NCBI RefSeq assembly: GCF_000005505.3
Contig: NC_016134.3
Span: 2,232,001 to 2,296,000 of the forward strand
Length of the DNA stretch: 64,000 nt
Direction: 5' to 3'
Origin: Brachypodium distachyon
Taxonomy: Eukaryota > Streptophyta > Magnoliopsida > Poales > Poaceae
The notes beneath the pieces were generated by a model. The model had not been told where the DNA came from, made no database searches, and saw only the letters and a program-made list of their open reading frames with translations. How positions within the stretch are numbered: position 1 is the first letter of the stretch; each line of letters starts with the position of its first letter. A program made the position numbers and the translations under genes. This document shows, one piece after another, positions 5,813-60,259 of the stretch.

Positions 5813-7687
5813 ATGGATGAGGAAGGGAAGGGAAGGTGTGAGAGGTGCAGGGAGTGGCAAGAGCATTTCTACTGGGAGCACATGGATGGAAGGAAGATGA
5901 GGTTCTTCAAGCTCATGTCAGGAGATTTTGAGCAGAGCATTGTAAGTATCTGAATACCCTGCCTAGTGGATTGAATCTTCTGCTCTGATGATGTTGAGGG
6001 GTTTTACTAGTTTTATTTTGTTCTTATTTTCAAGTAAGAAATAGGTGGGTTTTTTTAATACTAGGATTAGATTTGCTTGTTTTTTTATGAACATTTTGCT
6101 GCTAAACTTTTTTTTTCTAGAATACATTTGCTGCCAAACTGAATATTGGAAACAATACCTAAGATATGATACTGTGAATCTGCAACTTTAATTTATTTTA
6201 ATTTTTGAGAAGAGATTAAACCTGACTTTCTACAAAGCATAAACAAGTCTTAGAAGGCTTATCTGTTAATGCATCAGAGCCAAAAAAAAGGGTCTTACAA
6301 GGACTGTAAAACTAACATACATCATCATCGATCCTCTGAAACTAAACCATGTGAATAATACATGCCAATTTTCTGTCCTCTTATCTTAGAGCATACCGGA
6401 CAAGTTCGCGAGCAATTTCATCAGGCAGATGCAGATCGTGGAGGGGTTTGACCTAAAGGCGCAGAGCGGCGAGACATGGCATGTGGGTGTCACCAAGGTT
6501 TCAAATGATCTGTTCTTCAGGTCAGGATGGGGAGATTTTGCCAAGGCTCATGAACTGCAGGAGAATGACCTCCTGCTCTTTACATTCACCGGCAACTCAT
6601 CCTTTGATGTCTTGATCTTCGATGCTAGTGGCTGCGAGAAACTGTCTTCACTCTTTTCCGGCAAAATGCGAAAACATTTCGATGATCTTGGTGGTCAACA
6701 GGTTGAGCAATACTCTCTGATTGATGATTCTGATGACAGTGATGATAATGACTCTGATGAAGATGATAGTGAGAGTGTGCCATCTCTGTTGGTTGATTCC
6801 CCTCACAACAAGGCCTCTACTTCAAAGAAATTCAGTGCCAAGACTAAACCAAGTAAGTAAAACTACAAATTGTTCTGCGACACGTCTAATAAGTGATATG
6901 AGATATAATATATCCCTCTTTTGAGAACTTTGTGTAGTTAGCTAACAAGACATACATCTGTAACTATGCATCATCAACTTAGTTAATGTATTTTCTTGGT
7001 CAGTTCCAATGCACACACAACACTGATTTTTCTCTACAGGGACAGAGCTTTCTGAATCACCAAACAGTAGCAGCTACGATGATGTTAAGCACGAGACAAG
7101 TGAGGAAGATGAGAGTGATCATGAACCCTACTACTCGAGATCTGCGAAACGGCTACTCGACACCGAAAAGAGAGAGATAACCGGGCTGGCTTCGATCCAA
7201 CCAGACAACCCGGCTTTCATGACGGTTCTGCAGACGAGCAGCGTGCAAGGCAAAAGCAAATTCCTGGTCAGTTTTTAGACTGATAAAAAGCAATCTTATT
7301 AGGCACTTGCATTTGCACAAGATTTTCTGTTTAGACTGGTTGACACATTTGGATTTTCCAACACCATTGCCCCTTGTGCAGATCATCCCCATGGAATTTG
7401 CTGCTGACCATCTTCAGAGGAAGTCACATGACATCCTGCTCGTCAGGCCGGCCAGAGAAGAGAGGTGGCATGTCAGGTACTACCAGTGGAGCACCAGTAT
7501 AGGCTTCAAGGGCAAATCCTGGGCCAAGTTTGTCTGCGACAACAGGTTGCGAGAGGGTGATGTCTGCGTCTTCGAGCTTATCATATGCGCGAGGAGGAAG
7601 AAGATGAAGAAGACAGCAATGACGATTATCGCTGTCCATGTTGCCAGGAGGAGGAAGGCCGACGGCAGGTTTGTTGCAGTGGGTTAA
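5813..7687 (+). CDS. B3-domain transcription factor (REM-type), copy 2
   Basis: Proposed exons are 5813-5941, 6390-6852, 7040-7266 and 7382-7687, giving 374 residues. Structure and phases are identical to the copy at 951. Exon 1 carries the C-x2-C/HFYWEHM module. B3 domain 1 follows at about residues 44-137 (IPDKFASNF, GWGDFAKAHELQENDLLLF). A shorter Asp/Ser-rich linker comes next, and B3 domain 2 lies at about 262-368 (WAKFVCDNRLREGDVCVFEL). It is expected to be a nuclear DNA-binding protein. Differences from copy 1 are mostly single substitutions plus the shorter linker; both reading frames are intact, so both may be functional. Introns 1 and 2 are recognisably homologous between copies with small indels. 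Confidence 0.88.
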
Positions 7688-7744: not shown

Positions 7745-8040
7745 TGTTCAAGTATGTACTAGCACTGAAGAACTGAAATGGGACTAGTGAATGAATGTTT
7801 GTGAATGGCTCCGTTTAACCCCTCAAACTAACAGCTTTGGGACAAATTTCCCCAAATGTTTTTCTTGTGTATAAAATTACCTCCTAATTTTGCTGAACCG
7901 GATCCAATCACCCCCCAACCATGATCTCTGATCAGGTTTAACCGGGGCATGCCGGAAATTAGGCCGCACCCGGATCCATGCGAGGCAACCACGAGGCATC
8001 AAGATATTTAGCCAGATCTCTCTGCCGATTCATTTATCGT
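7745..8040. other. Intergenic, no gene seen
   Basis: Sequence after B3 copy 2. It contains a low-complexity C/A-rich stretch (about 7815-7930) but no recognisable gene or element. Confidence 0.5.
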
Positions 8041-8424
8041 CCCGACTTACGGTGACAACTCTCGATATTCGAGCATGAAGTGGCTGCTCTTGTGGCGTCT
8101 GGAAGAGCCACACGAGCCGCAGGCCTGAGCAATGTTGCTCTCATGCTAGTTGGCCTGGATCCACGTATCCCCAGACAAATTCTTCTCCTCTCAACCTACA
8201 TCGGGTATGTCACTCCGGAAGGGGTTGATGCGCTCCTGATGCCTCTCATCCCTAGGTAAATGTATGCGCGCGTGTGTTGGACTGTAGATGTATAGATGTG
8301 GTGGAAAATTAAGTGAGATCGGCATATTATCTTAATCTTAGATAGAGATGTGGCCTACACCCGGGTATAACGAAGGCGGTAGAGGGAGAGAAATCGATGA
8401 GAGGAGAAGGTGGTATATATACAG
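8040..8424 (-). ncRNA. Candidate 21-PHAS precursor 5' region, copy 1
   Basis: The plus strand at 8233-8254 differs from the rice miR2118 sequence as I recall it at only two positions (1 and 18). A minus-strand transcript would therefore carry a near-complementary target site. A TATATATA element at 8414-8421 lies about 160 bp to the right, correctly placed to drive transcription leftward through the site. Sequence on both sides is homologous to the other copies of this repeat. Left and right limits are approximate. An alternative reading is a simple dispersed repeat without small-RNA function. Confidence 0.5.
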
Positions 8425-8484
8425 AGCTTTGCCATGTGCTAGAACCTGCAGGGAGGGTACTCTGGCGTACCCGCTCTAGTTTGT

Positions 8485-9310
8485 GGTATGCCTGGGCATG
8501 GGTGGCCCGGCCCGGCCCGAAGCCCGACATTCCGGGCCGGGCTCGGGCCTCACTTTCCAGTCCCAAGCCCGGCCTGAAAGCCCGAAATGATTAAAAAATG
8601 TATTTTTAGGAAAAATAGGTATAAAAATATTTATTTATTTTGAAAATGATTATTTTAATACTTAAATGGCCTAATATAAAGCCGTCTTATCAACCATTGT
8701 ACATGTCCTAAGTGCAATTAATTTTGCAAGCTGCACATGCAGTCTATCCACGTCAGCACCTACCTTCTCACGAGTCCACGTCACCTCCTTTCACCCGTTG
8801 CGTTGCAGCGTCGCGAATGTTCCCCCAAATGGTGGCAGCAACGCTCGTTGCGCCGTTCCGGGCTTTGCCTGAACCCGCCGCTGCCAGAACTGCTCCGTGT
8901 GCTGTCGTCGTCGTGCGTGCTTCGTGCGCCGCTGCCACGCCTGCTCCGTGTGCTGCCGCCCTCGCGCCGGATCGTTGCGCCACCGCCGCGCCAGATCAGA
9001 ACGAGGCTGGAGGTGGGCCGGAAGATCGAGAGGAGGTGCAGGGGGATCGATTCGGGAGGAGGAGCGAGGAGTCGCCGTCGCTCGATCGAGATTGGGGAGA
9101 ATTGATCGGGAGGATCAATTCGAGACGTGCGTGCTGCGTGGGCTTCCTCAGCTTGGAGAAAGGAAATATCAGAAGGGAAGCGGGCCGTTGCAGGACTGGA
9201 CCAGGCTCAGAAAAGAAGACAAGATGGGCTGGCTTAAGTACATTGTAAAATAGCCCATGATGGGCCATGCACGCCGGGCCAACGGACTTTTTCAAAAAGC
9301 CCGGCCCGTT
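8485..9310. mobile_element. Possible non-autonomous DNA element with GGCCCGG clusters at both ends
   Basis: The left end (8490-8590) is dense in GGCCCGG/CCGGGC motifs. The right end (9245-9305) has GGGCCATGCAC, CCGGGCCAACGG and AGCCCGGCCCGTT. Clustered motifs at both ends resemble the subterminal arrays of hAT or CACTA elements. No clear terminal inverted repeat or target duplication was found. The GC-rich core (8710-9130) has open frames on both strands but no recognisable protein. Confidence 0.35.
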
Positions 9311-10600
9311 GGAGCTGGACGCAGGTCAAGCAGCCAGTTACCAATTAGTCTTGCTCAAAAAAGCCAAAATCCTTGCATGCAAGTCAAGTGCTACATGAGA
9401 AAGCCGCGGGGGAGGCTAGAGCACTTCCATCCATAGGAGAAGGGTGATGCAAAGGGACTGAGGGACATCAAGCGTGCCAACCTGCAGGTTAGGAGCAACG
9501 GCGAGCTCAAGGACAAAGTCTGTGATCATGTCCAAGTCCAACCTCCTCTCACCGTAGCCTGCTCGCTTCGATGACGTTGTTGTACCGGCTATGCACGGGA
9601 GATGCTGCTGGCTGGCGGCCGCATCGCGTACGGGTCCACTGTGGACCTTTGTAGCACCGGGTGCATCTTCGACAAGCTCCATGCACGTCGGAGCGTGCGC
9701 ATGTTGTAGGAGCACACGAAGGTGGAGCAGATCCATAGGTTCTGAGCGTCCTCCCTCCTCCGCTGCAGGTGTTGTACAAGAGCCGTTTGATGGAGACCTT
9801 CGAGTCTTGGGTGGTGCCAGACGAAGCTGCCGAGACGGTGCTCTCTGTTGACCCACTGCGCCATCACCGTGCTCGCCTCCGGCTGTTTCCCCAGTCCTGG
9901 CACGCCGTGCCCAGCAAGAGCAAGCGATGGATGCCACCACCAACTGGAGGCATCTCAAGAGCCACATCATCCACCCCGAGGAGTTGCCGCTACGGCGAAA
10001 CCCCTCGCGGCACCGCCGGTGAGGAAAAAGGATGCTCTCAGGGTGGTTGGTCCAGTGCACCTCGACACGTCGACCGCTTTGTGTGGGTCAAAAAGCCTAG
10101 ATCACCAGATGCGGCCAAGGCTAGATCACCAGATGCCTATATGCTCAGCTCCTCCAAACACAAGTTCAGCAGTAGTATTGATTTAAATGTGCAATGCAGC
10201 AACTGAGGAAAAATCAACAGTTTCAAGCTCATTTTACCACTCCCCACATTCTTTCTACATATTCTGTAGATGCAATGCTCTGCTCTAAATAGATTTGCAC
10301 TTCCACAAGCCTGGTGTTCATATATTAATTTGTTTAGCAATATAAACATTGTTGACCGACTCTCATAAAAGTGTGTTCCCATATAAACGCAAAATCCTGG
10401 ACAAATTCGGTGAGTATATCGAGTGTTGTGGTCTATTTACATTTTAAGCGAACATATGTTTTTTCAAGAACAAATTGACCTCCGAGCATCTAACTAAATT
10501 AATGTTCAATTTTTCAATATGTAGCGTATATTTCCGCAGCAACGCGCGGGGTATCATCTAGTTTTTTTTATTTGTAATAACTGAATTTTGTTTTGTACTT
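9311..10600. other. No supported gene
   Basis: GC-rich to about 10090, then AT-rich. The longest open frame (minus strand, 9416-10060, 214 codons) has a composition and sequence I cannot match to any family. I treat it as a chance frame or a heavily decayed gene. Confidence 0.4.
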
Positions 10601-11159
10601 GTAGTTATGTGCATTGCGGTGCAGAGACGGGGATCTTGCTTGGTCGTATCCGTCGATGTAGCATTGAGATCAATAAAGGCTTCGACCTGCCATGTGATGT
10701 CAAATCAGGTCCGGCCAAGCCAAACCACCGTGTATCAGAACCAAATCTACACGATTTTGTCAGTTGACGAGGTGAAGCTGCAAGCTTACAAGAACAAAAA
10801 ATCGAGGGAGAAAACCTATGATTTCGTAGCAATTGTGGGACAACAATAAATTTATCTCATTAACAAAATATATTGTCGAGAGAGACTGATTAATATGTGA
10901 GTGAAAATTCCATTTAGGACCACCAAGCTAGGTTCAGTTTTTTGACAGCTTTAATCCCATCTAGTAAGATTTCCGTTTTCTGACCCCGTTCAGAAAAAGT
11001 TTAGCCACAAACTCTACTAGCAAGACCATGACTCTAAACATGACTAACTCCAACTCTAAACACACAAGGACACTAACAACACGTAGTCTAGCTTCACAAG
11101 GAAACTAACCTGATTACAACTTGGACATGACTCTGACACTAGTACGCCTATAAAAACCT

Positions 11160-11443
11160 AATTAGGCAAGATCAATCCAACTGAAGGATGGAGCTGCACA
11201 TAGTCTCCAAAAGCTAGGGCATATATCCAAGGAACCGTTTACTGAGCCAACTCGGTCTTCCTCAGCTTTATATGATCCATTCAACCCGGCGGGGTTACAT
11301 ATTGACCTGACCCCTCTCATGCCTATGACTAGCTAGCAGTTAGAGTTGTAGTTGAGGATCTCAGAACGGAGTGATGCGATGGTGGTGGAGCGATGTACAA
11401 TCCTATATATCGGAGTGATGATGGTGGTATATCTTATATATGG
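11160..11443 (-). ncRNA. Candidate 21-PHAS precursor 5' region, copy 2
   Basis: miR2118-like core at 11304-11325 on the plus strand (CCTGACCCCTCTCATGCCTA at positions 3-22). TATA-like sequences lie at 11404-11410 and 11435-11441 to the right, oriented for leftward transcription. The left flank (AAAAGCTAGGGCATATATCC, then a CTCAGCTTTAT segment) matches copies near 14660 and 58400, so this copy belongs to the same subfamily as copies 4 and 10. Confidence 0.45.
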
Positions 11444-11526
11444 GCGCCACCTCTATCACGGATTCTTATATATCGGCGCCACCTCTATCACGGATTCTTA
11501 TATATCGGCGCCACCTCTATCACGGA
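11443..11526. repeat. 32-bp minisatellite
   Basis: Two full copies and one partial copy of a unit containing GGCGCCACCTCTATCACGGA and TTCTTATATATC, at 11443-11474, 11475-11506 and 11507-11526. The copies are identical over the shared length, so the expansion is recent. Confidence 0.9.
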
Positions 11527-11933
11527 CGGTACATACTCAGCTATTTCATTGGTACGTAAAATATCATGTATGTACACTGAAAAGGAAAAAACTAGGGGCA
11601 CGAAGGTCTTCAAGTTGCTAGTTCCCCCGACTAGAACTAGGTGCCATTTGACGTCTTTTGCGGTTTTAGTTTGTTGAAGTATACTTGGAAACATTTTTTA
11701 TGATTTTTTGATGTATTTGTGACTTGTGTCACTATTTGAACTCATAAGACTTAATCACGTGATGTATTTTTATACGGATTTCCTAGTTCTCAGTCGCCTG
11801 AGAAATTGTATTTCTTAGTCGACGGTGTGGACCGTCGGATGAAACATCAAGATTCGTGCTTGTTGTCAGACGACTGCTAGAAACAAAATAACGGAACAAC
11901 CGGACATGCACGATACCAGCATGTTGGATTGGT

Positions 11934-12003
11934 GGTTAGTACGCTTTGCCATCTAATGGAGGTTGCAGGTTCGAGTTCCTGGGACCATGTTTTGTTCTTT
12001 TTG
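11934..12003 (+). other. Degenerate tRNA-like sequence (tRNA relic or SINE head)
   Basis: A TGGTTAGTACG segment resembles a tRNA A box and GGTTCGAGTTCCTGGG resembles a B box, spaced about 40 nt apart as in a tRNA. The T arm pairs only with an eight-base loop and the acceptor ends do not pair, so it is not a functional tRNA. A T-rich run follows, as in some tRNA-derived SINEs. Confidence 0.4.
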
Positions 12004-12165
12004 TTGTTGTTTCTTTTTTCATTTTCGTTTTTTTTGTTTTGACTTATTTTGTTTTCGTTATCCTTTCTATTTAGTTTTACTTTTTGTTTCTGATATGCAT
12101 GTCTTGTGTTAAGAGTAGGGCAAGTTGCATGTTTCTAAATTCATAATGGCGCAATGACGCTAGTA

Positions 12166-12278
12166 CTTCATCCGATATATATTAATTGTCTCAAATTTGC
12201 CTAAATATGAATGTATCTATGTCTAAAAAACGTCTAGGTACATGTAATATTTCGACAATTAATATGGATCGGAGGGAT
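12166..12278. mobile_element. Stowaway-type MITE nested in the 1 kb element
   Basis: Ends are CTTCATCCG and CGGAGGGAT, flanked by TA on both sides (12164-12165, 12279-12280). The interior has the usual 'aattgtctcaaatttgcc' and 'catgtaatatttcgacaatt' arms that fold back on each other. Confidence 0.8.
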
Positions 12279-12349
12279 TAGTTGACATATTTTTTCATAT
12301 CTTTATTTTTTAAAGAACCGTACACTTCGAGTTTTCAGGTCTTCTTTTT

Positions 12350-12590
12350 TGCAGCTGCAACTTGGTGTCTTTTCATAAATTACAAGCGAAATTTGTGTGC
12401 TAACTTTTTGCAACCGCAACTTAGTTTAATAACTTCAAGTGTATTTTAAAAAAAATTGCAACTCAATGTCTTTTCATAAATTGCAAGCGAAATTTTGTGC
12501 ACTGACTTTTGGAACTGCAACTTATTTAATAATTGCAACCGTAATTCATATGCTTATTTCTTGCGGTTGCAACTTCGCGTAAGATCAACA
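12350..12590. repeat. About 120-bp direct repeat, two copies
   Basis: Copies at about 12357-12465 and 12466-12580 share 'gtcttttcataaattacaag', 'cgaaattttgtg', 'gcaaccgcaactt' and 'tttaataa'. They are diverged and lie inside the 1 kb inverted-repeat element. Confidence 0.7.
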
Positions 12591-12591
12591 A

Positions 12592-12746
12592 AACACACAC
12601 ACACCCATGCATGCATGGATGTAGCTGTCACACGCACACGAGCTGAAAAAACGCACTCCACACACACAGGCATGCACATGCATGTACAGGCGCACACACA
12701 CATGCATGTATGCATGCACCGGTCCTCACACACACACACGCACGAT
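12592..12746. repeat. CA/TG-rich microsatellite tract
   Basis: Interrupted (CA)n and (CATG)n runs. The overlapping open frames are products of this simple sequence. Confidence 0.85.
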
Positions 12747-13230
12747 CGACATGGAACTTGCCTGGCCTGTCGACCGAGAAATTTGTTTTCTCAGCCGACT
12801 GTGCCGTAGGCAGTCCAATTTCACACTTTTGCTACTTTTTAAAGACTTATTTGTGCTTTCAATATATCATGAATATATGCTCATGCGGGTATTTTTTACC
12901 TGGTGGAGGATATGGGACAAAATTACTACCCATGTATGGGTTTGGATACGGATGGCGAGCCTAATTTTTAGGCACGGGTATGGATTTGGGTGAACTCCGC
13001 CCGTACCCAAACCCTGCGGAGCCATCCCTATACAGGCTGCATTTTGAGGGCCCGACTCGTTCGGTGCTGGAGCAGTCTCTGTGACGCACCCGAGTCATCT
13101 CTGGTCAGCTGATCCGCTGCAACGAAGAGGCTGGCCCAACACTAGCATAACATTCGTGGCAAACTTGGTACAGGACGGTCACAGGCATTTATTGCCCGAC
13201 AAGAGGGTAGTTGGCCGTGGGAAAATAGAT

Positions 13231-13530
13231 GGCGTCAGATGGAGCCGAGAAGCTTTCGCACCCGCCGTCGCGTTCTTCCTCGCCGTCCTCCTCACGTCCT
13301 CCTCCCCTGCAGCAGCAGCAGCAGCGAGGTCGCCGCCGTCGAGCGGGAAACACGACATCCTGGCGGCGTCTGACGCCGTGAGAAACCAGGAGCAGTGCGG
13401 TGGCCCACCGCCCACGAGCATGACATCATTGAGACATTGACATCCCGGCCGGCCGTGTTCGCGTTCGGCGACTCGACGCCGGCAACAATAACCGGTTCAT
13501 GACGCTGGTGCGCACCAAAGGGTCTGACCG
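13231..13530 (+). pseudogene. GDSL esterase/lipase first-exon relic
   Basis: A frame from about 13248 encodes VAFFLAVLLTSSSPAAAAAA, which looks like a secretory signal peptide. After a frame change the sequence at about 13456-13510 reads AVFAFGDST, then GNNNRF, the block I motif of GDSL lipases (catalytic Ser in FGDS) with a few bases missing between. Nothing homologous continues beyond about 13530. It is a truncated, frameshifted remnant of a secreted plant GDSL hydrolase gene. Confidence 0.65.
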
Positions 13531-13559
13531 GGGCCAGAAATTCAAAAAAGATCCCTGTA

Positions 13560-14000
13560 CCGCACAGGGCAGGAGAGATTAGCTCGCTCTAAATCACCCG
13601 GTGTTAGCAACTAGCACATCATTGAATTCGTGTCAGACATCTCACTTCTTTTTCGATCCAACGGAAGCTGGCCCCTGGTGCACTGTACCCTTGAGCCAAA
13701 ACGCCACACTCATCCCTATTCAAGCCTGAATCCCTATCCCTAGGTATATATACGTACTATGTAGTGTATATATGTTGGATCAAGCAGGAGGACTAAAAAA
13801 GAAAAAACGAGACCGATTGTGGATATATCCTCATCCTGATCTTAGGTAGAGACGTGGCTGATGAGCATCACATTAATTATGTAACGGTGGTAGAGGCCGG
13901 GGATTCAACCTCCTTTTTGAAAAAAAAATGTAACGGTGGCAGAGGAAGAGAACTCGACTGAGTGGGAAAGGTGGCAATGGCATGCGTATATATATAGATC
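13560..14000 (-). ncRNA. Candidate 21-PHAS precursor 5' region, copy 3 (degraded site)
   Basis: The core at 13723-13742 is two bases short (AGCCTGAATCCCTATCCCTA), so cleavage by miR2118 is doubtful. The right flank, including GGATCAAGCAGGAGGACTAA, the 'gtggctgatgagcatcac' segment and a TATATATATA run at 13986-13996, closely matches copy 11 near 60000. This copy may be dying or may use a different trigger. Confidence 0.35.
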
Positions 14001-14559
14001 GAGAGAGGCTGAGGCGCAGGTACAATGCATAAAAGGGCGGTGGGTGGAGCATGATACGAATTCATCAATGAAACCTGACAAACTGTGTAGATGCATGTGA
14101 TAATTAACTTAATTAGATTAGGTCAGATCAGATGGCCCCGTGGCATCACGTACGCTGCCATCAAAATAGTCCACACATCAAAATTCTTGTGTCGTATCAT
14201 ATGACACGTGGCTAGAATATTAGCCCTCAAAACTAATCTAACAGTATCAAGATTGAGAAAAAAAACAATAATCACACAATTATAATACAATGGATTGACC
14301 ACATTTCGCAAGATGGACGTGGTCTTTTAGTTGAAGGAGAGACCATGTCTCTTAAGATTATTTAGAAAAGAATGAGGGACGACAAAACCTACTTTCCTTA
14401 TAAATTGTGGGACAAAAATACATTTAAAAATAGTCGATCATGTATCCTATCCTAATGATGGTAAATGATACTCCTAGACCTATCTCCATGAGACATGCAC
14501 GAATGACTCATCATACTAAAGAAGGTGCATCCTGGATTTCTCCTCACGATTCTGCTTCT

Positions 14560-14960
14560 TCACATAAGGATGGGGCAGCACAGCACAGGCACAAGCCGCA
14601 GACAACACCTAGCTTTCTTGAATTTTGGCTCTTTTGGGAAGTTACTAAGGATCCATGTCAATGTGTCCCCAAAAGCTAAGACAGATATGCAAGGAACCTT
14701 TTGCTGAGCAGCTCAGTCTTGCTCAGCTTTTTATGGTCCATCCAACATGAAGGCGTTACACGTAGTCCTGACCCCTCTCATGCATACTACAGGCGGTATA
14801 CGTGCGTTTGACAAGCAGCTGGGAGGACTAATTGAGCGACCGATTCTCCTAAATCCTACTCCATTTAGCTTATGAATTGAAGCTCGGGAGTGATGGAGTG
14901 AACCGGGGAGGAGAAAGCGAGACGAGGGGAGATCGTGGTATATCTCATATATAGGGGCCT
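14560..14960 (-). ncRNA. Candidate 21-PHAS precursor 5' region, copy 4
   Basis: miR2118-like core at 14765-14786 and TATA-like ATATATA at 14947-14953, about 160 bp to the right. It matches copies 2 and 10 on both sides, including GCAGCTGGGAGGA near 14815 and GTGGTATATCT near 14936. Confidence 0.45.
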
Positions 14961-15306
14961 GAATGACCTCCAAAAGTTCCCTCCCCAAAAAAGAATGACT
15001 TCCAAAAGCCAGTAGGCTGATGTGAAGATGTACAACGCGAAATAATGGAAGGTGGGTGCGTAGAAGGTCTTCAAAAACGGGCCGAGAGCTTTAACTGTGA
15101 GTGTATCCTTTGCATTTTGGAAACAAGACTAGCTAATAAAGAGGCTGAAGAGACTGATTCTCAATCATTCGGGTTGATTCGCAGATGGCAGCTGAGAGAG
15201 CCATTGTTATTGATCCCCAAATATATGATGGTCAAGAAAGAATGCACTTGCCTAGGTATGCTCTCTTTATGATAGTAGCTAGTACTGTAACCCTTTTGTA
15301 TTATTA

Positions 15307-15377
15307 CTCCCTCCGATACATAAAAGTGTCGTCCATTTTATACTAAGTAGACGACATTTTTTATGGATCAGAGAAAG
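15307..15377. mobile_element. Short Stowaway-type MITE
   Basis: 71 bp between TA duplications (15305-15306, 15378-15379). The arms 'gtgtcgtccattttatac' and 'agtagacgacat' fold back. The left end is CTCCCTCCGATAC and the right end is GATCAGAGAAAG (slightly eroded). Confidence 0.75.
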
Positions 15378-15420
15378 TAATATATATCATGTTTCCAAAA
15401 AAATACGGTAGTTCGAAATA

Positions 15421-15585
15421 TTGTACTAGCTTGGTTGTCCCGGTGGTGATCGCCAAATGAAATGAACTAGCTTGCTAATTGCCAATTTCCACAGGTTAAT
15501 GTCAATGCGCTTATGAGCACCCTAATTAACCTACGCATACCATCTCAAGCAGGGGTGGCCATATTTCTGACCCCTCTCATCCCTA
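15421..15585 (-). ncRNA. Candidate 21-PHAS site, copy 5
   Basis: miR2118-like core at 15564-15585. The left flank from 15421 (TGTACTAGCTTGGTTG, GATCGCC, TAGCTTGCTAATTGCC) matches 59163-59240 closely. No separate TATA element lies between this core and copy 6, which begins about 290 bp to the right, so both cores might sit in one minus-strand transcript. Confidence 0.4.
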
Positions 15586-15639
15586 GTTAGGTACGTAAAC
15601 GTGCGTGTGTTTGCTGCATGTGTTAGAACGGACAACGGT

Positions 15640-16054
15640 TCGACCCAGCTACTCAAACATTAGCCGGCGCCGGTCTTACCGTCCAGATCCACATGAGCTT
15701 ACAACTAACTAATGCCTCAAGTCTAACTCAACCCAAAAGTAAGGACTGAACCGAAGGTACTGAAAAAAAAACTGCATACCCAATTACATTTGTCAAAACG
15801 GACGGAAATAGACCCACTACTAGCATTTGAACTTCCTGTCGCTTTGTATATCTGCATTACCAGGGCTAAATGGGCTTCCGATCCCTCTCATCCCTAGTAG
15901 ACAGCGTGTGCATTTGACAAACCGGAGAAAGGAGGAAAAATCCAACAAAGATCGATCTATGGGTCCCAATCTTAGAGATGTGGCTGACCATAACATGGAG
16001 AAGGCGGTGTAGGAAGAGAAATTGAATAGAGGTGAAGTTTGGTACTATATATAG
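15640..16054 (-). ncRNA. Candidate 21-PHAS precursor 5' region, copy 6
   Basis: Core at 15875-15896 of the CGATCCCTCTCATCCCTA type, and a CTATATATAG element at 16045-16054, about 150 bp to the right and oriented leftward. The GATCGATC, TAGAGATGTGGCTGA and GGCGGTGTAGGAAGAGAAAT segments between them recur in copies 1, 3, 7 and 11. Confidence 0.5.
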
Positions 16055-16059
16055 AGGCT

Positions 16060-17390
16060 GAGCGATAACTTGAGGTGAGCATTATACCAAGTCGATCAGT
16101 AGAAACGTGATACAAATATATCTGACCTCTCTGCACGACTAAGATGCAGACAACACCGAACCAAACTAGTCGCCCATACATACAACCGAAGTGTTGCGAA
16201 TTAATAGCATCAAAGGGGCGCAACAGCCATGCTGAGATTAATTCACCACCCACGCACATGGGTGAACACCTCCCTGGCCATCCCTCCACCAAAGTACATG
16301 CCTTCAACAACATTTTCTTGCTGAATAGACTAAGTACGGAGGCAGTAACACCCAAATCCTAAGGCCGAAGTATTAATTGTTCGGCCTCGAGGCGCTGCTG
16401 CTTTTTTTCCTTTCATTCCGCGGGTCGTTAACCTGTAAAGGAGATGGAAAGTTCTTTTTGTTAAACACGATGTCATTATACGGCCGGCGAGACCCCAACA
16501 GAGCTACCGCGCCAACCAGAACCAACTACCACAACTTGTTACCCATTAATACCCCGGAGCCAGCCAGACAGCCCCCAATCAAATTGGGAACGCCACGGGG
16601 TGAAAACAGATTAGTCGCGATATAGACGATCGACTAGACTGTGCACACAATGTTGAGTAGGAGTAATTGTTTTGTTATGGTAACAAAAAGTACAGCCAGA
16701 ACGTACTGCCTACCAGTTCCGCTTTTTTACACTCCCCGCTTGAGGTACCAAATGAATTTCTTATTTTGAGCCGTGATTACTTACCTGAACGCCACAATGA
16801 AAAAACAGGCTTTTTTGGTGCAAATTTCACCGGACAAATGAATCTAGACACCCCCGCTGGCTGCAGCCAGCTCTTGCCCACCAGGAGTCCGTCATTCCGT
16901 CCAGAGCATCTTCAATGCAAGGTACGTAAGGTAGTGCTACAAAATTAAACCGGTCTATTCTCAAGCAACAGTGCTTATTTCTATATTAGAGGTGCCTAAT
17001 TAAGCACCTGTCTTATAAAACACAAGCACTGGTGCTTAGACAAAAACCGGTTTATTTTGTGCAAGCAACTTTCTAAGCACCTTGCATTGAACATGCTCTC
17101 CTGATCGGCTGGGAGATTTGGAAGGAGCGCAACTCTTTTATTTTTCAGAATTTATCGGGTACCCGTGGTCAACGGCCGCATCAAAGACGAAATTGCCGCT
17201 GGGGCCGGCCTCGGCTCTTGCGGGTTAATGTACGTAGTTTTTATGATTTTGGAGGGGGTTTAGGCCGCCCTTCCCCGCTGTACATATTTCCTTCTTTGTT
17301 AATATATTGGCAAAGCTTTTGTCCTTAAAAAAAGAAGAAGTTATTAGCAGTCTTTTTTTTGACAGCTAGTTACTAATAGTCAAAATAACC
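16060..17390. other. No supported gene
   Basis: Mixed-composition intergenic DNA. Short open frames have no recognisable content. A 'taagcacc' motif recurs in both orientations between about 16990 and 17090, suggesting a small foldback MITE, but its ends are not clear. Confidence 0.4.
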
Positions 17391-17399
17391 ATTTCTTAA

Positions 17400-18335
17400 A
17401 ACAAGAATTTGTTAATTGCTTATCGGGATGTAAAGCTTTTTGTGTTTTCTCGAAAAAGAACAAGAAATTGCTTTTGTACCTTTGAGTCCTAGTTTGAACC
17501 TTGTGGCAATTTTTTCTATATTTTGCTATTATCCTGAACTGACAAGCTAGACTATTTGGATTCGCAAGCCTACCTCTATACATTTTGCCACCTGCTGAGT
17601 CCAAGTTAGCATCTAATTTGCCACACCTCACCTTCTTCTTCGCCTTCCTTCTCATTCTCCCTCCTCTCGCTGCCGTTCCTTGCTGGGCTTTGTGTTTAAT
17701 TACATGGCCGCTGGTTGACAGGATCAAGCTAGTTTATCTGGTCATGCTAATGGTTCATCTAGGATGAGTACATACTTATGAATGACTTGTGAATCTATGT
17801 TGTTCCATCTTTACTACAATTTCATATCATTTTTTTTGCAGCGAACCGGACACAATAAGAATTTGTTTTCAAGAGCGAATAGGCCCGAATGACGTACCGC
17901 CGCATCTCGTGTAATTCATTGGAGGCATTCGCGGGAATATTATGTGTCCGGCCACATAGCATCCAATATGTGGACATACCTCCACGTAGCCGTCCGGAGG
18001 TGCCACACGAGACACAGGCAGCATTCGTTCCTTAGCAATCATGCTCCTTAGGACTCAACCTAGTTGGCTTGTATCGGTTTAGCCCTAGCTGGTTCTTTCT
18101 TACATCCTACATTGGCCAAGAAATGATGCACATGATGCGCTCCCGATCCCTCTCATCCCCATTCCTAGGTAGGTGTAAAAAGGGGATCAATCGATCGATC
18201 GATATATCCTCAGTCCTCTTGATCTTAGCTATGTATATATATAGGGATGTGGTTGAGCATCACAATAATTATGTAAAGGTGGTAGAGGAAGAGTAATCGT
18301 TTGAGCGGAGAATTGAAGGTGGTACATATGGAGAG
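17400..18335 (-). ncRNA. Candidate 21-PHAS precursor 5' region, copy 7
   Basis: Core at 18140-18161 (CGATCCCTCTCATCCCCA, followed by a small insertion before TTCCTAGG). A TATATATATA run lies at 18233-18243. Left-flank homology to copy 11 is long: 'tttgagtcctag.ttgaa', 'gattcgcaagcctacctc', the 'gtccggaggtgcc' segment and 'catcctacattggcca' all recur near 59650-59930. Confidence 0.45.
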
Positions 18336-23005: not shown

Positions 23006-25986
23006 ATGGCTGGTCAAGATCATGAGCAAGATGATAGGAGTGGTCACAACATCAGCAGCAGGTCGTGTCAAAGATGCGAGCACTGCTATGCACATTATTA
23101 TTGGTGTCATCTGGATGATACCAGGAAGTATTTCTTCGAGTGCATGGTTGGCGATTTCCATGAAAAAATGGTAAGCCCTGGTGAACATACCCTTTCTCTA
23201 AAATGGAATGCCATCCTGCCCAGAATTATAAACGTTTTTTCCTTACTTTTTTTTTATTGTATTTTGTTCCTGCAGATCATACCAAGGAAGTTTGTGGAGA
23301 ATTTCAAAGGTCAGATCGCTGAAGTTATCAAGCTAGAAGCTCCTGACGGAAACATATACAATGTTCACACTATCAAGGATCTGAACAAGATACACCTTGG
23401 ATCTGGATGGGCATCATTTGCCAACTTATACGAACTAAAAGAGGGCTACATGCTGGTGTTCAGGTACATCAGGGATTCCCACTTCAAAGTTCTAATATTT
23501 GATTATGGAAGTTGCTGTGAAAAAGAAGTGTTCCACGTTGTCATGAACCGTGGCGGTCCTGATGCCCAAGAAGGCACTCATCTTGATCAATCGCCACCAA
23601 GAAGATCCCAAGATGGTGGGCCAAGCAACGGTGAGTCCCATCGAAGATGTGAGTGGTGCGATGCACATTACTATTGGCATCACCTAGATGATAGGCAGAA
23701 ACATTTCTTCAGGTTCATGGTTGGCAATTTCCGGCAAGAAATGGTAAGAATGGATGATCAATACCCTTTCTACTTTGAGATGAAATGTCTTATTCATCAA
23801 ATATATATTGTTTGCTGTTTACTTTGTTGTCTTGTCTGTTCCTGCAGAGCATTCCAGAGAAATTTGTGAACAATTTCAGAGGGCACATCTCTGAAGTTAT
23901 CAAGGTGGAAGCTCCTGATGGAAATGTATACAGCATTCAGGTTACCAAGGATCTGGACAAGATAGTCCTTGGATCTGGATGGGCAGCATTTGCCGATACT
24001 CATGAACTAAAAGAGCATGACGTGCTGGTGTTCAGATACATTGGGGATTCTCACTTCAAAACAATAATCTTCGAACCAAATGGCTGCGAGAAAGAATTAT
24101 TCCATGTCGTCATGAACCGTGCTTGTAATGTCGGAGAAACGGGCATTTTCTGTGATCAGCCAGTTCCCAAGGAAGCAAGATGTAGATACGGTGGATCACA
24201 CGACAACGACAATAGGAAAAGTAAGAAGAAGACTCCACTGCACTTGCCTTCACCGAGATCAGGTAAAGATTGAAGAGTTGAATGTACATTTTTACTGGTG
24301 CCTATAATTGCTCACTGACGTCTTGATGATTTACGTTGTGCAGCTGAAGGTGTCGCGTCTTCAGAGGACATCCAGGACACCATGAATTCGTGTGGCCTTC
24401 AGGAAACTGCAGAGCCTCTCTATGTCCTAGCAAAAGAGTGCAATCTGACTACAGAGCAGAAGGCAGAAGTCGGTGCGCTTGTGAAGAAGAATAGGCCTGG
24501 AGTTCCATTTTATATTACAGCTTTGAACAAGACTAGTCTGTCTGAATCTCTGGTACGCGTGCAATATCTCCTACAGTTTCAATGAGACAAGAGAAAAATA
24601 TATGTTTCGCCCCTCAATTGGCATTTTCCGTAGACATTTAGTCTCTCAATTGGCAAAACCAGAGAATTTTGGTCCTTTGTACCGCTCGAAAATCAGTATT
24701 GCCTCCAATGGCTCTGTTTTGCCCTTGAATTGGTCATGTAGGCCGCCAAGCTAGCACCTTGACACCCTAAAATCCTAACCCTAAGTATCCAACAAGCTCT
24801 AGTACGTCGTGAAATTTTGGCAGCCTACATGGCAAACCCCTCTTTGGCGGGACAAAGGACCAAAATTATCTGGTTTTGCCAACTGAGGGACTAAATGTTA
24901 ACGGAAAAAGTTTAGGGACCAATTGTATATTTTCGTGTCAACTGAGGGATGAGAAATATACCTTTCCCAGAAGATAATGACTAATCCTACACATTTAGTT
25001 ACACAATGCTCGAAATTCAGGCTATATGTTATTACAAAATTATTGGGATTGTTGACATTACGATCTTCAGATATTTTCAGTGGCCAGATCATTATATAAT
25101 CCATCTGTAACAGGTCATATGCAAGGCTTATGCTGTGAAACACCTTCCGCATGAAGATCAACCCATCACACTGTGCCATCCTCAGAGCAGCAAAACATGG
25201 GATGCCAGTTTTAGGGTTATTATTTATGGTACATCTATCCTTCCATGCATAACTTCTACTGGATGGTTGGAGTTCGTTCAAGATAGCAAATTGCAGGAAG
25301 GTGATATCTGTATATTTGAAATATCGAAAAGCGACGGTAGAGTGATCATGGTAATTCATTCTCTTGAAGGAGGCTATCACCCACCAAGTGAGTATCTGAC
25401 ACATTGATACCTGCACATATGGCAATTGGCATATGCATGTGTATGTTTTCTTTTTGAAACACTAAGGAGTCAAGATGAGCTACTGTGGTTTTACTTGATC
25501 AGTTTGGGAAAACCTAATGAACATTAATTTTTGACAGGTAAAGAGCCTGAATCTCAAAACAATTGCGAACATCTAGTTAAGGGTGAGGCGACTGATCAGG
25601 ATGAGGAGAGTGACGATGAACATGCTGAGCCTGACTGTTACTACTCAAGGTTTGCCAATTACCTGACTGCTGAGGAGCAAGAGGAGATATTCGGGTTGGC
25701 ATCGATCCAGCTGGGCAACCCTGTATATGTCACTGTCTTGTGCAAGTCTCACGTTCGTGGCAGCAACAACATGCTGGTCAGTAGAGTTGTTCCGAAGATG
25801 ACGTTTTGTAGACATTTAGTCTCTGTTCAGATAGACGTTTTGTACTATCATAATGAAGTCTTACAATATGCCTGAACTAAATGCTGAACCAGTTAGTGTG
25901 CTGTGTTCTATTATATTCAGGTCATCCACAACCAGTTTGCGGCTAAGCACCTTGCGGAGAGATCCCACGACATCCTGCTCCTGTGA
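23006..25986 (+). CDS. Multi-B3-domain transcription factor (REM-type), C-terminally truncated
   Basis: Proposed exons are 23006-23170, 23276-23743, 23848-24262, 24344-24552, 25114-25387, 25538-25776 and 25921-25986, giving 611 residues; splice phases all agree. Two cysteine modules (RSCQRCEHCYAHYYW at about residues 18-32, RRCEWCDAHYYW at about 178-190) each precede a B3 domain. B3 domain 1 is at about 56-150 (IPRKFVENF, GWASFANLYELKEGYMLVF) and B3 domain 2 at about 212-305 (IPEKFVNNF, GWAAFADTHELKEHDVLVF). A third, more diverged B3 is at about 405-505 (GWLEFVQDSKLQEGDICIFE). A fourth begins at about 570 but is cut by TGA at 25984-25986. A plus-strand reading through intron 1 is also open, so that intron could be retained. 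It is probably a nuclear DNA-binding protein that still makes three B3 domains. Confidence 0.8.
24591..24965. mobile_element. Foldback MITE in intron 4 of the B3 gene
   Basis: Long inverted arms. The left arm (about 24600-24682) has CCCTCAATTGGC, ACATTTAGTC, GGCAAAACCAGA and TTTTGGTCCTTTGT. The right arm (about 24852-24962) has ACAAAGGACCAAAATTA, TCTGGTTTTGCCAA and GGGACTAAATGTTAACGG, then AACTGAGGGATGAGAAATAT. It sits wholly in the intron and probably folds into a hairpin in the pre-mRNA. Confidence 0.75.
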
Positions 25987-27299: not shown

Positions 27300-28110
27300 T
27301 TTACTAGTGTTTAATTTGCAGTCTGGCCGACCCTCGGTCCGTCGTCCCACCCCGCGCGCGCTCGCGAAAAAACCCTGTCCAACGCTCGGACGCGGCCCCG
27401 CGATCAGAAAACCAACCGATTTTTCGTCCAGTTCATCTCGATAGAATTCCCCCGCCGCCGCGGCCCTTCCTCGCCTCCGCCGCTGCCGCCGTCGTTTCCC
27501 TCCCTCTATCCTCGCGTGCTCCGGCGACCCAACCATCCTCGCCGCCTCCCTCTATCCTCGCGTGCTCCGTCCGTCACCCCAACAGCGATCTCCCATAGTC
27601 CCATCCCGATTCCCACGCTAGCTTTAGCAAATAAAGATAACCGACCTGGCCTCCCCATCCCGTCGCAGCGCGGCGCCGCGGCCCTCCCCTATCTCCTCCT
27701 CCGGTGGCGGCGCTCCGTCGGTGCTCCGGCCGACGCGCAACTCCCTCCGACGGCGGAGCTCGGTGATTTCGGTGAGGAGACGAGGAGGAGGAGGAGCTCT
27801 GCTGGTGTGGAGGAAGGCAGGGGCGGAGGAGGAGAACGACGACTGGATCTCAACCGCGGAACCGGCCGCCCAACCACGGCGGCGGAACCTGCCGCTGCCG
27901 CACTCCACCGCGGAAGCAGCAGCAGCCACCCTCCAGTCGGCGAGCTCCAGCCCCAAGAGTTGAATTGACCGCCCCCTCGATCTTGATCCTCTAATCAACA
28001 ACGATTCTTTTTTTTTCTTCGTCTCCTCCTCCTCCGGCCTGCCGGCGGCGGCAAGAAGCCCCCCATGATTCTCAGCCGGGTTGACTCTCCGTGAGCATTC
28101 CTGTTAGTGT
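27300..28110. other. GC-rich block, no supported gene
   Basis: Strong CpG richness and direct repeats of CCTCCCTCTATCCTCGCGTG (about 27500 and 27546). Frames on both strands are Arg/Pro/Ser-rich without a domain. It resembles the promoter plus 5' leader of a grass gene, but no coding exon follows. Confidence 0.4.
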
Positions 28111-28379: not shown

Positions 28380-28786
28380 GGGGAGATCAGAAGTAAATTA
28401 TTGGAGAAACCAATTGCACAGAAATAGGTAATAAAAGATTATCTGTGAGTCACCAAAGAAAAAAAACGTAGGTATATATTCCATGCCGCTGCACCTACAA
28501 AAAAGAACATCAGATGTGGTTTGGTCAGTAGCTGAAAGAACCATTAAGAAAACATACCTGAATGTTCAGAAGAGTACTTTCAGCCTGCAGAAGTATTCCT
28601 GACCCCTCTCATCCCTAGGTAGGAGAAAATGACATTGCGGAGGAAGAGAGATCGATCTATAGCGTTGCAAAAGAAGAGATCGATCTATAGACATATGTTA
28701 GTTGCATCACATGAGGAGGCGCTAGAGGATCCTTGGGGATCGATTGATGAGTGAGAGGGGGACGTGAAAGTGGTCTAGATATATAT
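28380..28786 (-). ncRNA. Candidate 21-PHAS precursor 5' region, copy 8
   Basis: The core at 28596-28617 begins TTCCTGA at positions 1-7 and matches recalled rice miR2118 at 19 of 22 positions. A TATATATA element at 28778-28786 lies about 165 bp to the right, facing left. It forms a tandem pair with copy 9. Confidence 0.5.
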
Positions 28787-28796
28787 GCTAGGTGAA

Positions 28797-29090
28797 ATAA
28801 AAGATGGTGGGTGAAAGATAAGTCGAATTTAACAATGTAAACTGCATGCATGTGGAGAAGTTAACGCGTGTGCCGTTACGGACACACAAGCTGGCACACA
28901 CGCTCTTTGTGGTGAGGCGAACCCACCCACCGTGGGTTTTAAGTTTTTCTTTTTCAAACTGATTTTAATGCTTCTTTTGGTTTTCAATGATTTGTGCATA
29001 GATTTTCCAAGTCTTTTACTCAAAATGAAACCAACTCAAACAATTCTTTTTAATTTTTCTTAAACAATGTGTTAACCCTTGGGTAGAGGA
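28797..29090. repeat. Upstream segment of PHAS-like copy 8, duplicated at 30364-30655
   Basis: AATAAAAGATGGTGGGTGAA, then ACCCACCCACC.TGGGTTTTAA, 'aaactgattttaatg', 'ttttggttttcaatgat' and CAACCCTTGGGTAG recur in order. In minus-strand terms this is the region upstream of the TATA element, so the duplicated unit includes promoter and target site. Confidence 0.8.
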
Positions 29091-29740: not shown

Positions 29741-30321
29741 AACTACATGGTCATTAATGTCATTCAAGATCATTGCAGCTGGAACTGTGAACTCACTAGC
29801 CGCAGAAAACAAACACACTTCATACAACTCCAACCTTCTGGCTGCAGCTGATTCAGAGTGCTGCAGCCGTAGAATCTGTCGTTGTAAAGCTGCTGCAGCC
29901 CAAACAAACACAACCTAAAATCATTGTTTCCAAGGACAGGGCAATGGTTCCAAGAAACAGCCGGCAGACGAAGTAATTCTTTCATGGCGCACCAGATATC
30001 CGGGTGCTAGATGTATTCCTAATCCTGACCCCTCTCATCCCTAGTAGATGTGTGCGTGTTTCAGAAGCAAGGGGAGAAAAATGAGATTACGGGGGAAGAC
30101 AGATCGATCTTGTTAATGATAGACAGAGGTATGTTGTAGTTGGATCGCATGGGGAGGCACGGTAGAGGATGAGTAATGCTATATGTACGACAAACTAATG
30201 CCCGATTCTCGTCCGATGAAAGACACGAACCATCGATCAAATCATTGTGCCGCTGGACATTGTGTCGTACACTACAGACCGGAAGGAGATCGATTGATGA
30301 GAGGAGAAGGTGCTATATATG
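29740..30321 (-). ncRNA. Candidate 21-PHAS precursor 5' region, copy 9
   Basis: Core at 30022-30043 and a CTATATATG element at 30313-30321. The wider spacing (about 270 bp) comes from an insertion of about 110 bp at roughly 30175-30285 compared with copy 8. The flank beyond 30364 duplicates 28797-29090. Confidence 0.45.
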
Positions 30322-30363
30322 CAGACTGATATTGTACACGCGAAAGTGGTCTAGATATGCAAT

Positions 30364-30655
30364 TTGAAATAAAAGATGGTGGGTGAAAGACAAGTCGGGA
30401 ATTAAACAATGCAGCAACGCGCACATGTGGAGAAGCTAACTACGTGTACCGCTACGGAAGTACAAGCTCGCATGGTGAGCTAACCCACCCACCTTGGGTT
30501 TTAAGTTACCTTTTCTCTCAAACTGATTTTAATGTTTTCTTTTGGTTTTCAATGATCTGTGCATAGATTTTCCAAGTCTTATACTCAAGATGAAACCAAT
30601 TCAAACAATTATTTTTATTTTTTGGTAAGCAATGCAATCAACCCTTGGGTAGGAT
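30364..30655. repeat. Second copy of the 28797-29090 segment
   Basis: Same ordered motifs as the first copy, diverged by scattered substitutions and small indels. Confidence 0.8.
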
Positions 30656-30849: not shown

Positions 30850-31460
30850 ATTTAGCGACTAACTTGGCACGTTTAAGAGCTCACTCTGTTTTACTTTGTG
30901 TAATGCTACAGTTTTTGACTCTTCGTCCACGCACGCCGCGCCGATCCCCTCCTTTCTCGGCGCTCCGCCGGCGAGTCGGCCACGGCCTTGTCCGCCTCCT
31001 TTGCGCCCCCGCCCCCTCCTCCCGCCCTCTCTCTGCCTTCCATGGCGGCGCATCCCGCCCGCGCCCGCCGTCCCCTGCCCCCCTTGCGTGGCGAGCGCCG
31101 CCACCTCTCCTTCTCTGCCCCCGAGCACGTGGCGGCAGCCCTCGGCGACCAGGCGGGGAGGCCTTCTGTTCCTCACAAAGCCACTGTCTCCTTCGCCTCG
31201 ACTAGCGGCTCCCTCCTCGAATCCTCTGAGACTCTGAGTCTCTGACGACCCACTGGCCTGCATCGGCCGGTATCCGAGTCGAAGCGCATGCTGCGGCGGC
31301 TGCTCAGCGCGGCGGAGGTGGAACTTCGTCATTAGGAGCGAGCGTGCTTGCGCAGCGCCCGGAGGACGTCTCCGTGAAGCTGTTGCCGAAGGGGCTTGTG
31401 CTGCCGTAGGGGTGCCCAAGCCCTCCTTCTAGACTCTCTGGTCTGGCTTCTGCTTCTGTG
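30850..31460. other. GC-rich block, no supported gene
   Basis: Plus-strand frames at 30864-31245 are Pro/Arg-rich, and the minus strand holds a 186-codon frame (30859-31419). None matches a family I recognise. The block could be the first exon of a decayed gene. Confidence 0.35.
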
Positions 31461-36500: not shown

Positions 36501-36731
36501 GTAGGACAGCTCTCGCACCTCGTTCATCCAGGCTTTATCTTGTGGATCGGGGTCCTCCTCCTCCGACATCTTCAGAAGGAACGTGTCCATTGCTGCGAGC
36601 TCATGTGTGAGGGATTCGATCTCGCCGCGCACACCCTTGAAACGCTTGTATTCCTCGCCTAGCAGAGAAGCCAGCTTCCCCAGGACGGATTTCAGGACCC
36701 CCGTGGCTGCGCTCACCAAAGTGGCCTCCAT
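33583..36731 (-). CDS. CC-NB-LRR (NLR) disease-resistance-type protein
   Basis: Two exons, 36731-35914 and 35581-33583, are joined through AG|G (Arg 273), giving 938 residues. Order of domains: Rx-type coiled-coil with an EDVID-like motif (about 78-86), NB-ARC, then LRRs from about 540 to the end. Visible NB-ARC motifs are the P-loop GSGGMGKTT (199-207), kinase-2 FIAIDDIW (275-282), RNBS-B GSRIITTTR (300-308), GLPLA (367-371), RNBS-D CLLYLSIFPED (427-437) and VHD in place of MHD (497-499). Such proteins are cytoplasmic immune receptors that sense pathogen effectors. The start was chosen at the second in-frame Met because MEATLVSAATG is the usual NLR N-terminus; an upstream ATG at 36779 would add 16 residues. 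No stop or frameshift breaks it. The recognised pathogen cannot be inferred. Confidence 0.92.
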
Positions 36732-36739
36732 GGATACCG

Positions 36740-40689: not shown

Positions 40690-41020
40690 TACACAGATAG
40701 GCACTTTAATTTTGAATTTTTGCTCAATTGGCTCCTGACGGACGTTTTTGACAGAAATGGTCCTTTCCCGAACGAAATGTCAAAAATGGCTTGCGGAAAG
40801 CACATAAAGCGACACGTGACCTTTCCTCCAATGGCATTGGCAGAAAAGGGGGGCAGAAGGGCTTCCCAACACACAAAGTCAAATGCACAAAACACTGCGA
40901 CAGTACATTCGGCCACGTGCCGCTTTGTGTGTTTTTCGCCAGGCTAGTTTTGTCAATAGTTTTTGAAGGAGGCCATTTTTGACAAAAGCGTGAGCCAGGG
41001 GGCCACTGCTGCAAATTTTT
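40690..41020. mobile_element. Possible foldback element in ankyrin-gene intron 1
   Basis: Left arm: GGCTCCTGACGG, GTTTTTGACAGAAATGGTCC. Right arm: GGAGGCCATTTTTGACAAAAGCGTGAGCC, here cut by spacing differences. The two arms are partly complementary and the outermost A/T-rich ends also pair. Boundaries are uncertain. Confidence 0.45.
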
Positions 41021-41384
41021 TTTTAATTTTTGCTTTATATATGCTAGTTAACAACATAAACAGTGCGACTTGATCGTTATAAATAGAGTATTCTTATAAA
41101 TATATAGTGAGTCTCCATGCAAATAATATCAGAACAAATATTATCAGAACGATTAGCTTGACCATGCATATATTATTAGAAACCTGAAAAATTATAGATG
41201 CCTATCACGCCCACATTTTTAGGGGTGCAATAGTAGTTGATTATTACTTCTCATCTTTGCAGCAATGACAGAAATGCTACTGGAATTTAACATTGGTCTT
41301 ACTGCACAGAAAGACCGAAATGGAAGCACACCCCTTCACTTTGCAACATCAATTCTACATCCGAGAGGTGTACACTTCTGGATC

Positions 41385-58370: not shown

Positions 58371-58636
58371 TTTTTGGCTGTGACGAAAGTTACACATGGG
58401 ATTCCCAAAAGCCAGGGCAAATATCCAACAAGACTATTGTTAACCAGCTAAATTTCTTGTGCAAGGTCTACACGTAGTCCTGACCCCTCTCATGCCTAAT
58501 TAGTCGACTTGCGTTGGACTAGCAGCTGGGAGGAATCGAGAGATCGATCCTCCTAAATGGCTAAATTCCGAGTGATGGAGAGAAGAGAAAGCGACGAGGG
58601 AGATCGATGGTGGTATATCTTGTATATATAGGCCCA
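58370..58636 (-). ncRNA. Candidate 21-PHAS precursor 5' region, copy 10
   Basis: Core at 58477-58498 and TATATATA at 58623-58630, about 130 bp to the right. It matches copy 4 closely on both sides (GCAGCTGGGAGGA, GAGTGATGGAG, AAATGACCTCCAAAAGC, GGAAATAAAAGAAGGTGGGT). Together with the segment at 59163, the order repeats that of 14.6-15.5 kb. Confidence 0.45.
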
Positions 58637-58744
58637 AATGACCTCCAAAAGCTAGAAGGCTATTGTACAACGGGAAATAAAAGAAGGTGGGTAGAAAATG
58701 ATCTGCGAATTGCGATTTCATCAATTAATGGAACCTGCACTAGG

Positions 58745-59649: not shown

Positions 59650-60150
59650 GCTTAATTTGAGTCCTAGCTAGTTTGAACGCTTTGGGATTTATACTAGGGA
59701 GTACATTATGTTTCATGAACGGACATGCTAGATCCATGCACTACTCGGCTTCGCAGGCCTACCTCCATGTAACTATCCGGAAGCACCGCAAGCTATACTA
59801 CCGTGATCTGAGGAGCCACAATCCACGCGCACGCATTGTGCTCCTTGGGACTCACGCTAGTTGCTTCTGATCCATGTATCCCTAAGTAGTTTCTAGTGGC
59901 ATCCAACATTGGCCAATCAAAGAAATGGTGTGTTCCTGACCCCTCTCATCCCTATGTAGGTATATATACATATGTACTATGCAGTGTACTAGGCCGGTTG
60001 GATCAAGCAGGAGGACTAAACAAGATGAGACCTCTTGATCTTAGATAGAGATGTACTGGCTGATGAGCATTATATATATAACTTATGTAAAGGTGGTAAA
60101 AGAAGAGAGAAATTGATTGAGTGGTGAAGGTGGCATGCGTATATATATAT
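59650..60150 (-). ncRNA. Candidate 21-PHAS precursor 5' region, copy 11
   Basis: The core at 59933-59954 is identical to that of copy 8 over all 22 positions. A TATATATATA run at 60140-60150 lies about 190 bp to the right. The left flank matches copy 7 and the right flank matches copy 3, making this the most complete member of its subfamily. Confidence 0.5.
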
Positions 60151-60259
60151 GCATAACAAAAGGGCGGACTGGAGGTAGGTGGAGCATAATCCGAATTTAT
60201 CAATGAATTACCTGTGTATGCATGTGATAATTAACTTAATTGGATGAGTAAATTCAGAA

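Follow-up and report, generated by a model that had tools for sequence, protein, structure and literature searches.

A same-strand cluster of putative miR2118-triggered 21-PHAS loci with a shared TATA/leader module in Brachypodium distachyon

Introduction

Grass reproductive loci that give rise to 21-nucleotide (nt) phased small interfering RNAs (phasiRNAs), the 21-PHAS loci, are described from rice superclusters and from Brachypodium, maize and wheat as having in common a 22-nt miR2118 site, a non-coding intergenic precursor, clustering and an unconserved body (PMC4053937, PMC4788661, PMC7057497). In the grass pathway, the miR2118 cut is reported to be followed by 21-nt phasing through RDR6 and DCL4 (PMC4053937, PMC7305157, PMC7784310). 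For Brachypodium, more than 1,100 phased loci are reported, 21- and 24-nt together, and degradome data support miR2118a/b at 288 phased loci (PMC4053937). The 24-PHAS loci, which depend on miR2275 and are driven by EAT1, are described as similar in having clustered non-coding precursors whose miRNA site is conserved and lies close to the 5' end (PMC5825165), whereas the trigger considered here is miR2118. Here we analyse a window of 64,000 nt (C5:2232001-2296000; C5 is contig NC_016134.3) from the 271-Mb genome of Brachypodium distachyon, in which an initial annotation had proposed a cluster of miR2118-like sites as candidate 21-PHAS loci. The copies are very probably minus-strand precursor genes of 21-nt phasiRNAs triggered by miR2118; their transcription, cleavage, phasing and anther expression are what we infer from the sequence and from the analogy with known grass loci.

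Results

Putative miR2118 target sites in the window

We searched the window for the 22-nt core CCTGACCCCTCTCATCCCTA, allowing up to three mismatches, and found ten matches, all on the plus strand, compared with none in 100 dinucleotide shuffles. Six of these intact cores are in the block at 8040..18335 (all site coordinates are window positions), two are at 28.6 and 30.0 kb, and two at 58.5 and 59.9 kb. The initial annotation had counted seven copies in the block, of which six were recovered intact; the seventh, presumably the copy at 13723..13744 (minus strand as a target), has decayed. Its shortened core reads CCTGAATCCCTATCCCTA, with bases missing in the middle, and was undetected at up to three mismatches. 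This copy is probably a dead trigger.

Minus-strand sites were scored (mismatch 1, G:U 0.5) against 11 miR2118 isoforms predicted from 12 hairpin loci of the genome, a set that does not use further matches in the C6 cluster with two or three mismatches. A score of 5 is the cut-off given for Brachypodium phased loci in a degradome study (PMC4053937). All ten intact sites score below it, at 1.0-4.5 (eight at 4 or less and two at 4.5), and the decayed copy was not recovered within the cut-off. In 30 first-order Markov control sequences, both strands together, 0.1 sites would be expected at scores up to 4 and 1.1 at scores up to 5, and reversed miRNAs yielded no window site at 5 or less. Three additional positions score 5.0 (37902 and 43134 on the plus strand, 5833 on the minus strand), little above the Markov expectation. 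The initial annotation had likened the core to grass miR2118 and had named lack of complementarity to the isoforms of the species as a ground for rejection; the core is complementary to the isoforms predicted from the hairpins of this genome.

The first base at the predicted cut is the site start plus nine, and the cut point of 8242 that had been proposed is right for cleavage opposite miRNA positions 10/11. All putative target sites are on the minus strand. Site 1 (8233..8254, score 1.0, predicted cut 8242/8243) is the closest to real miR2118 and the sole intact site without a mismatch at miRNA position 9. It is followed in the block by site 2 (11304..11325, score 4.5, cut 11313/11314), site 3 (14765..14786, score 4.5, cut 14774/14775), site 4 (15564..15585, score 3.0, cut 15573/15574), site 5 (15875..15896, score 3.0, cut 15884/15885) and site 6 (18140..18161, score 3.0, cut 18149/18150). 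Beyond the block are site 7 (28596..28617, score 2.0, cut 28605/28606), site 8 (30022..30043, score 3.0, cut 30031/30032), site 9 (58477..58498, score 3.5, cut 58486/58487) and site 10 (59933..59954, score 2.0, cut 59942/59943). Site 4, for which no TATA hexamer occurs within 300 nt, follows site 5 at a distance of 311 nt downstream; the two may be sites on one transcript.

Trigger genes and the distinction between targets and microRNA genes

A genome-wide search for the miR2118 consensus at zero or one mismatch returned 13 places, 12 of them at C6:13.92-14.00 Mb and C5:7.47 Mb. At 11 of these 12 loci, 17-19 of the 22 bases pair with the 5' arm of a hairpin, over a span of 21-22 nt. The twelfth, L009, has 15 paired bases over a longer span. 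The thirteenth locus (L011) did not fold as a hairpin and was grouped with the targets, and one locus, L026, was taken on the wrong strand in the fold run. The Rfam model for MIR2118 (RF01911) matched all six hairpin loci tested (14 matches) and none of four target-like loci. By fold and family match, then, the genome encodes a miR2118 trigger, with predicted MIR2118 genes at C6:13.92-14.00 Mb and C5:7.47 Mb; the 22-nt form of the miRNA is predicted.

The window copies could in principle be MIR2118 precursor genes themselves, transcribed from the plus strand with the core as the microRNA. The plus strand does read miRNA-like, and grass MIR2118 genes are reported to be clustered as well (PMC7305157), each with the 22-nt sequence on one strand. 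However, at the 11 window sites only 0-12 bases pair with a 5' arm, against 17-19 at 11 of the 12 control loci, and none of the 11 folds as a MIR2118 hairpin. Unlike the six hairpin loci with their 14 matches, the window has no RF01911 match at the gathering score, nor does the region 7600-31000 at E-values up to 1. Because hairpin and Rfam match are both absent, we regard the copies as miR2118 targets and not as microRNA genes, on the sequence evidence; the fold test and Rfam count against the alternative, to which we give very little weight. Two inverted repeats, at 16943-17057 and 15302-15382, fall short of the gathering score for the MIR9783/MIR1319 and MIR1120 families, which they resemble, and are perhaps miniature inverted-repeat transposable elements.

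Extent and orientation of the array

Using an 18-nt core at up to two mismatches, we found 31 matches in the genome, of which 19 fall in C5:2.240-2.389 Mb, all on the plus strand; the reversed pattern gave 11 genome-wide. Together with two consensus matches and the site at 18140, these 19 make up an array of 22 intact sites, all in one orientation. Outside the window the array was read around known sites, and the consensus listing is complete to two mismatches, so weaker or opposite-strand sites may be missed from this count. The clustering described in the initial annotation accordingly extends to 22 same-strand sites over C5:2.240-2.389 Mb. At up to three mismatches the miR2118 consensus occurs at 323 places in the genome, MIR2118 genes included, and its reversed pattern at two.

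Other regions also carry miR2118-like sites. Those at C5:0.54-0.65 Mb (538315-645338, loci L050-L054) face the opposite way, and some of them have a different leader, of the GGATCTCTCTTC type. At C1:4.48-4.82 Mb the sites are dense and occur on both strands.

Conservation at the site and coding content

Ungapped comparison kept 29 of 30 copies, 22 of them from the array, with the decayed copy excluded. Among the 22 array copies, identity is 85% in the 22-nt core, falls to 29% and 39% in the 22-nt stretches on either side and to about 25% farther away, a pattern that fits selection on the site but is not independent proof of it, because the copies were chosen by their core. The initial annotation had described grass premeiotic 21-PHAS loci as conserved mainly at the site; here part of the promoter and leader proved to be conserved too, as described below.

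The longest complete ATG open reading frames (ORFs) within 800 nt downstream of the copies encode 25-91 amino acids (aa), with frames running past 800 nt uncounted. There are 64 stop-to-stop frames of at least 130 aa in the window, 20 of which were compared with Pfam. The six of these 20 that lie nearest the copies had no Pfam match (8781-9206, 9416-10087, 27624-28103 and 30859-31428 on the minus strand; 13048-13440 and 58695-59120 on the plus strand). We reject coding transcripts on these short ORFs and on the missing Pfam matches in the six nearby frames, in agreement with the earlier statement that no coding sequence follows the copies.

A TATA/leader module upstream of the sites

To compare the surroundings of the sites, we took 30 copies in precursor orientation, 23 from the array and seven from elsewhere on C5; these are not fully independent, since 15564 and 15875 have overlapping regions. 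With one mismatch allowed, 10-mers in the 320 nt upstream of the site are common to up to 17 of the 30 copies, against at most six in the 320 nt downstream; three single-letter shuffles gave common 10-mers in four to six copies. Pairwise BLAST detected homology in 130 of 435 pairs, which peaks at the site, reaches about 270 nt upstream and tails off by about 120 nt downstream. In an alignment of 12 copies the order is TATA, then TACCACCTTC, then CTCTTCCTCTACCACCTT.

Two leader profiles were built. The first, whose seeds include five window copies, misses 11304, 14765 and 15564. The second was seeded with seven array copies outside the window and no window copy, and it has 11 matches in the window, all on the minus strand, upstream of nine of the 11 sites. 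It has no match elsewhere in the window and none in the reversed window. In window coordinates these minus-strand matches place the TATA/leader module of copy 1 at 8317..8433 (E-value 4.9e-14), that of the decayed copy at 13767..14086 in two pieces (13767-13902, 2e-15; 13928-14086, 1.5e-14), and a divergent module, missed by the first profile, upstream of copy 3 at 14799..15067 (1.4e-5). The others belong to copy 5 (15905..16058, 7.5e-9), copy 6 (18190..18335, 8.3e-19), copy 7 (28622..28840, 3.3e-8), copy 8 (30044..30408, in two pieces: 30044-30177, 1.7e-11, and 30281-30408, 2.5e-7), copy 9 (58509..58735, 2.4e-9) and copy 10 (59996..60207, 3.8e-19). The upstream region of copy 2 (11326..11535, minus strand) has no leader-profile match and contains three TATA-bearing units of 32 nt. 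These units, approximately three in 11436-11535 with their hexamers 32 nt apart, lie in the presumed promoter of 11304 and are possibly a tandem expansion of promoter sequence.

A strict TATA (TATAWA, 90-230 nt upstream) is present in seven of the 11 window copies, where it lies 132-195 nt upstream of the site, and in 19 of the 30 copies overall. The corresponding frequencies are 12% at random window positions and six of 30 (two of 11 in the window) in the mirror band downstream. The initial annotation had seen a TATA-like element to the right of ten of 11 copies. The same count comes out if any of four TATA hexamers within 300 nt is accepted, the exception being 15564, and it drops to the seven just given under the strict definition. 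Its further suggestion, a minus-strand transcript that starts upstream of the site, gains sequence-level support from the conserved module, which points to predicted minus-strand transcription. Depletion of AUG in the leaders was not seen (30 observed against 24.7 expected in 19 leaders), and a short upstream ORF is common to some copies only.

That the sequence is repeated in several copies would also be in line with a dispersed family of transposable elements whose likeness to miR2118 is incidental. Genome-wide DNA searches with two of the modules, however, gave at least four and at least one matches beyond the query, every one found lying within the C5 array and on the same strand, and the homology is centred on the 22-nt site. 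We reject a dispersed transposon on this confinement of the module matches found, and consider it exceedingly improbable.

A model of phasiRNA production and the points against it

A typical copy would comprise an upstream TATA, a pyrimidine-rich leader, the 22-nt miR2118 site and then an unconserved non-coding body. The minus-strand precursor would be transcribed in young anthers, where the 22-nt miR2118 would cut it opposite its own positions 10/11. The downstream fragment would be made double-stranded by RDR6 with SGS3. DCL4 would then dice leftward in a 21-nt register from the site start plus nine, for example from 8242. At the level of sequence, the candidate-PHAS reading of the initial annotation is supported by complementarity, by the copies being targets and not MIR2118 genes, by the same-strand cluster and by the TATA/leader module.

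Several observations weigh against production of phasiRNAs from these copies. Opposite miRNA position 9, beside the cut, nine of the ten intact sites have a G:G mismatch, which could weaken slicing. The copies at 11304 and 15564 have no leader-profile match. Core identity is partly built in, as copies were picked by core likeness. The isoform that is best for most sites comes from the locus (L009) that folds imperfectly, with 15 pairs over 43 nt; it passes Rfam nonetheless, at 117.9 bits against a gathering score of 85. Lastly, a phase signature within the sequence (5' C, G at position 19) is weakly in register: five of the six settings ranked the expected register second of 21 and the remaining one ranked it third, and without the first four cycles it was just 1.3 standard deviations above the mean for 47 loci and 0.9 for 30 loci.

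Some of these points could also be read as signs that most copies are decayed PHAS relics, in an array that grew by tandem duplication and in which transcription and cutting have ceased at most members. The broken core at 13723, the position-9 mismatch, the strong divergence between copies outside the module and the part of core identity that is due to copy selection would all be consistent with this. Relics are expected to lose the module, however, and leader and TATA are kept upstream of nine of the 11 sites; ten cores, moreover, remain at scores of no more than 4.5. We therefore judge general decay of the array unlikely, and favour miR2118-triggered 21-PHAS loci.

Neighbouring features in the window

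B3-domain frames are found beside and within the array (1513-2007, 6390-6860 and 23006-23869, plus strand). A CC-NB-LRR gene at 33583-36830 (minus strand) consists of two frames, the larger of which resembles a 938-aa Brachypodium RPP13-like protein, and contains no miR2118 site within the cut-off score of 5. Across 96% of its own length, one NLR frame in the window shows 100% identity to a Brachypodium distachyon protein. An ankyrin-repeat frame (38807-39721) and a PGG-domain frame (42021-42743), both on the plus strand, are probably one gene (region 38807-42743). Between the 30-kb and 58-kb copies lies a GC-rich block (44000-56000) with weak retroelement matches, RNase H-like at 50603-51055 and aspartyl protease at 51134-51886. 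A hAT-type transposase frame occupies 61903-62709 (minus strand), and the adjoining frame at 62631-63278 has no Pfam match.

Discussion

These loci resemble ordinary representatives of the known 21-PHAS class and have probably been catalogued already. They are set apart from the published grass loci, by description, in two ways: the array copies also have a TATA/leader module in common, in the roughly 270 nt upstream of the site, and nine of the ten intact window sites mismatch miRNA position 9. Low sequence conservation between grasses is reported for wheat PHAS loci (PMC7057497), and a comparison of strawberry 21-PHAS precursors describes the trigger site as the sole region conserved in all, in an annotation that took 50 bp upstream of the sites (PMC8368212). 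Our alignments suggest that the miRNA site is not the sole conserved part in the C5 array. We found no account of a conserved 21-PHAS promoter/leader module in the open-access literature searched. The shared module is a modest novelty and the part worth following.

One proposal, to which we give an even chance, is that a conserved cassette of about 250-300 nt, made up of promoter, pyrimidine-rich leader and trigger site, is maintained while the body can vary freely. The leader would then be a functional cis-module, for premeiotic transcription or for engagement of ribosomes or SGS3 before the cut, and the array would grow by copying of the cassette ahead of new sequence. Since 21-PHAS precursors are reported on polysomes in maize and rice (PMC7784310), the leader may, by analogy, play a part in engaging ribosomes.

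The 21-nt reproductive phasiRNAs matter for grass fertility. Rice in which a miR2118 cluster was deleted is reported to show severe male and female sterility (PMC7305157). The open-access literature searched gave no account of what switches on 21-PHAS precursors, and a promoter and leader common to otherwise divergent copies is a concrete element to test.

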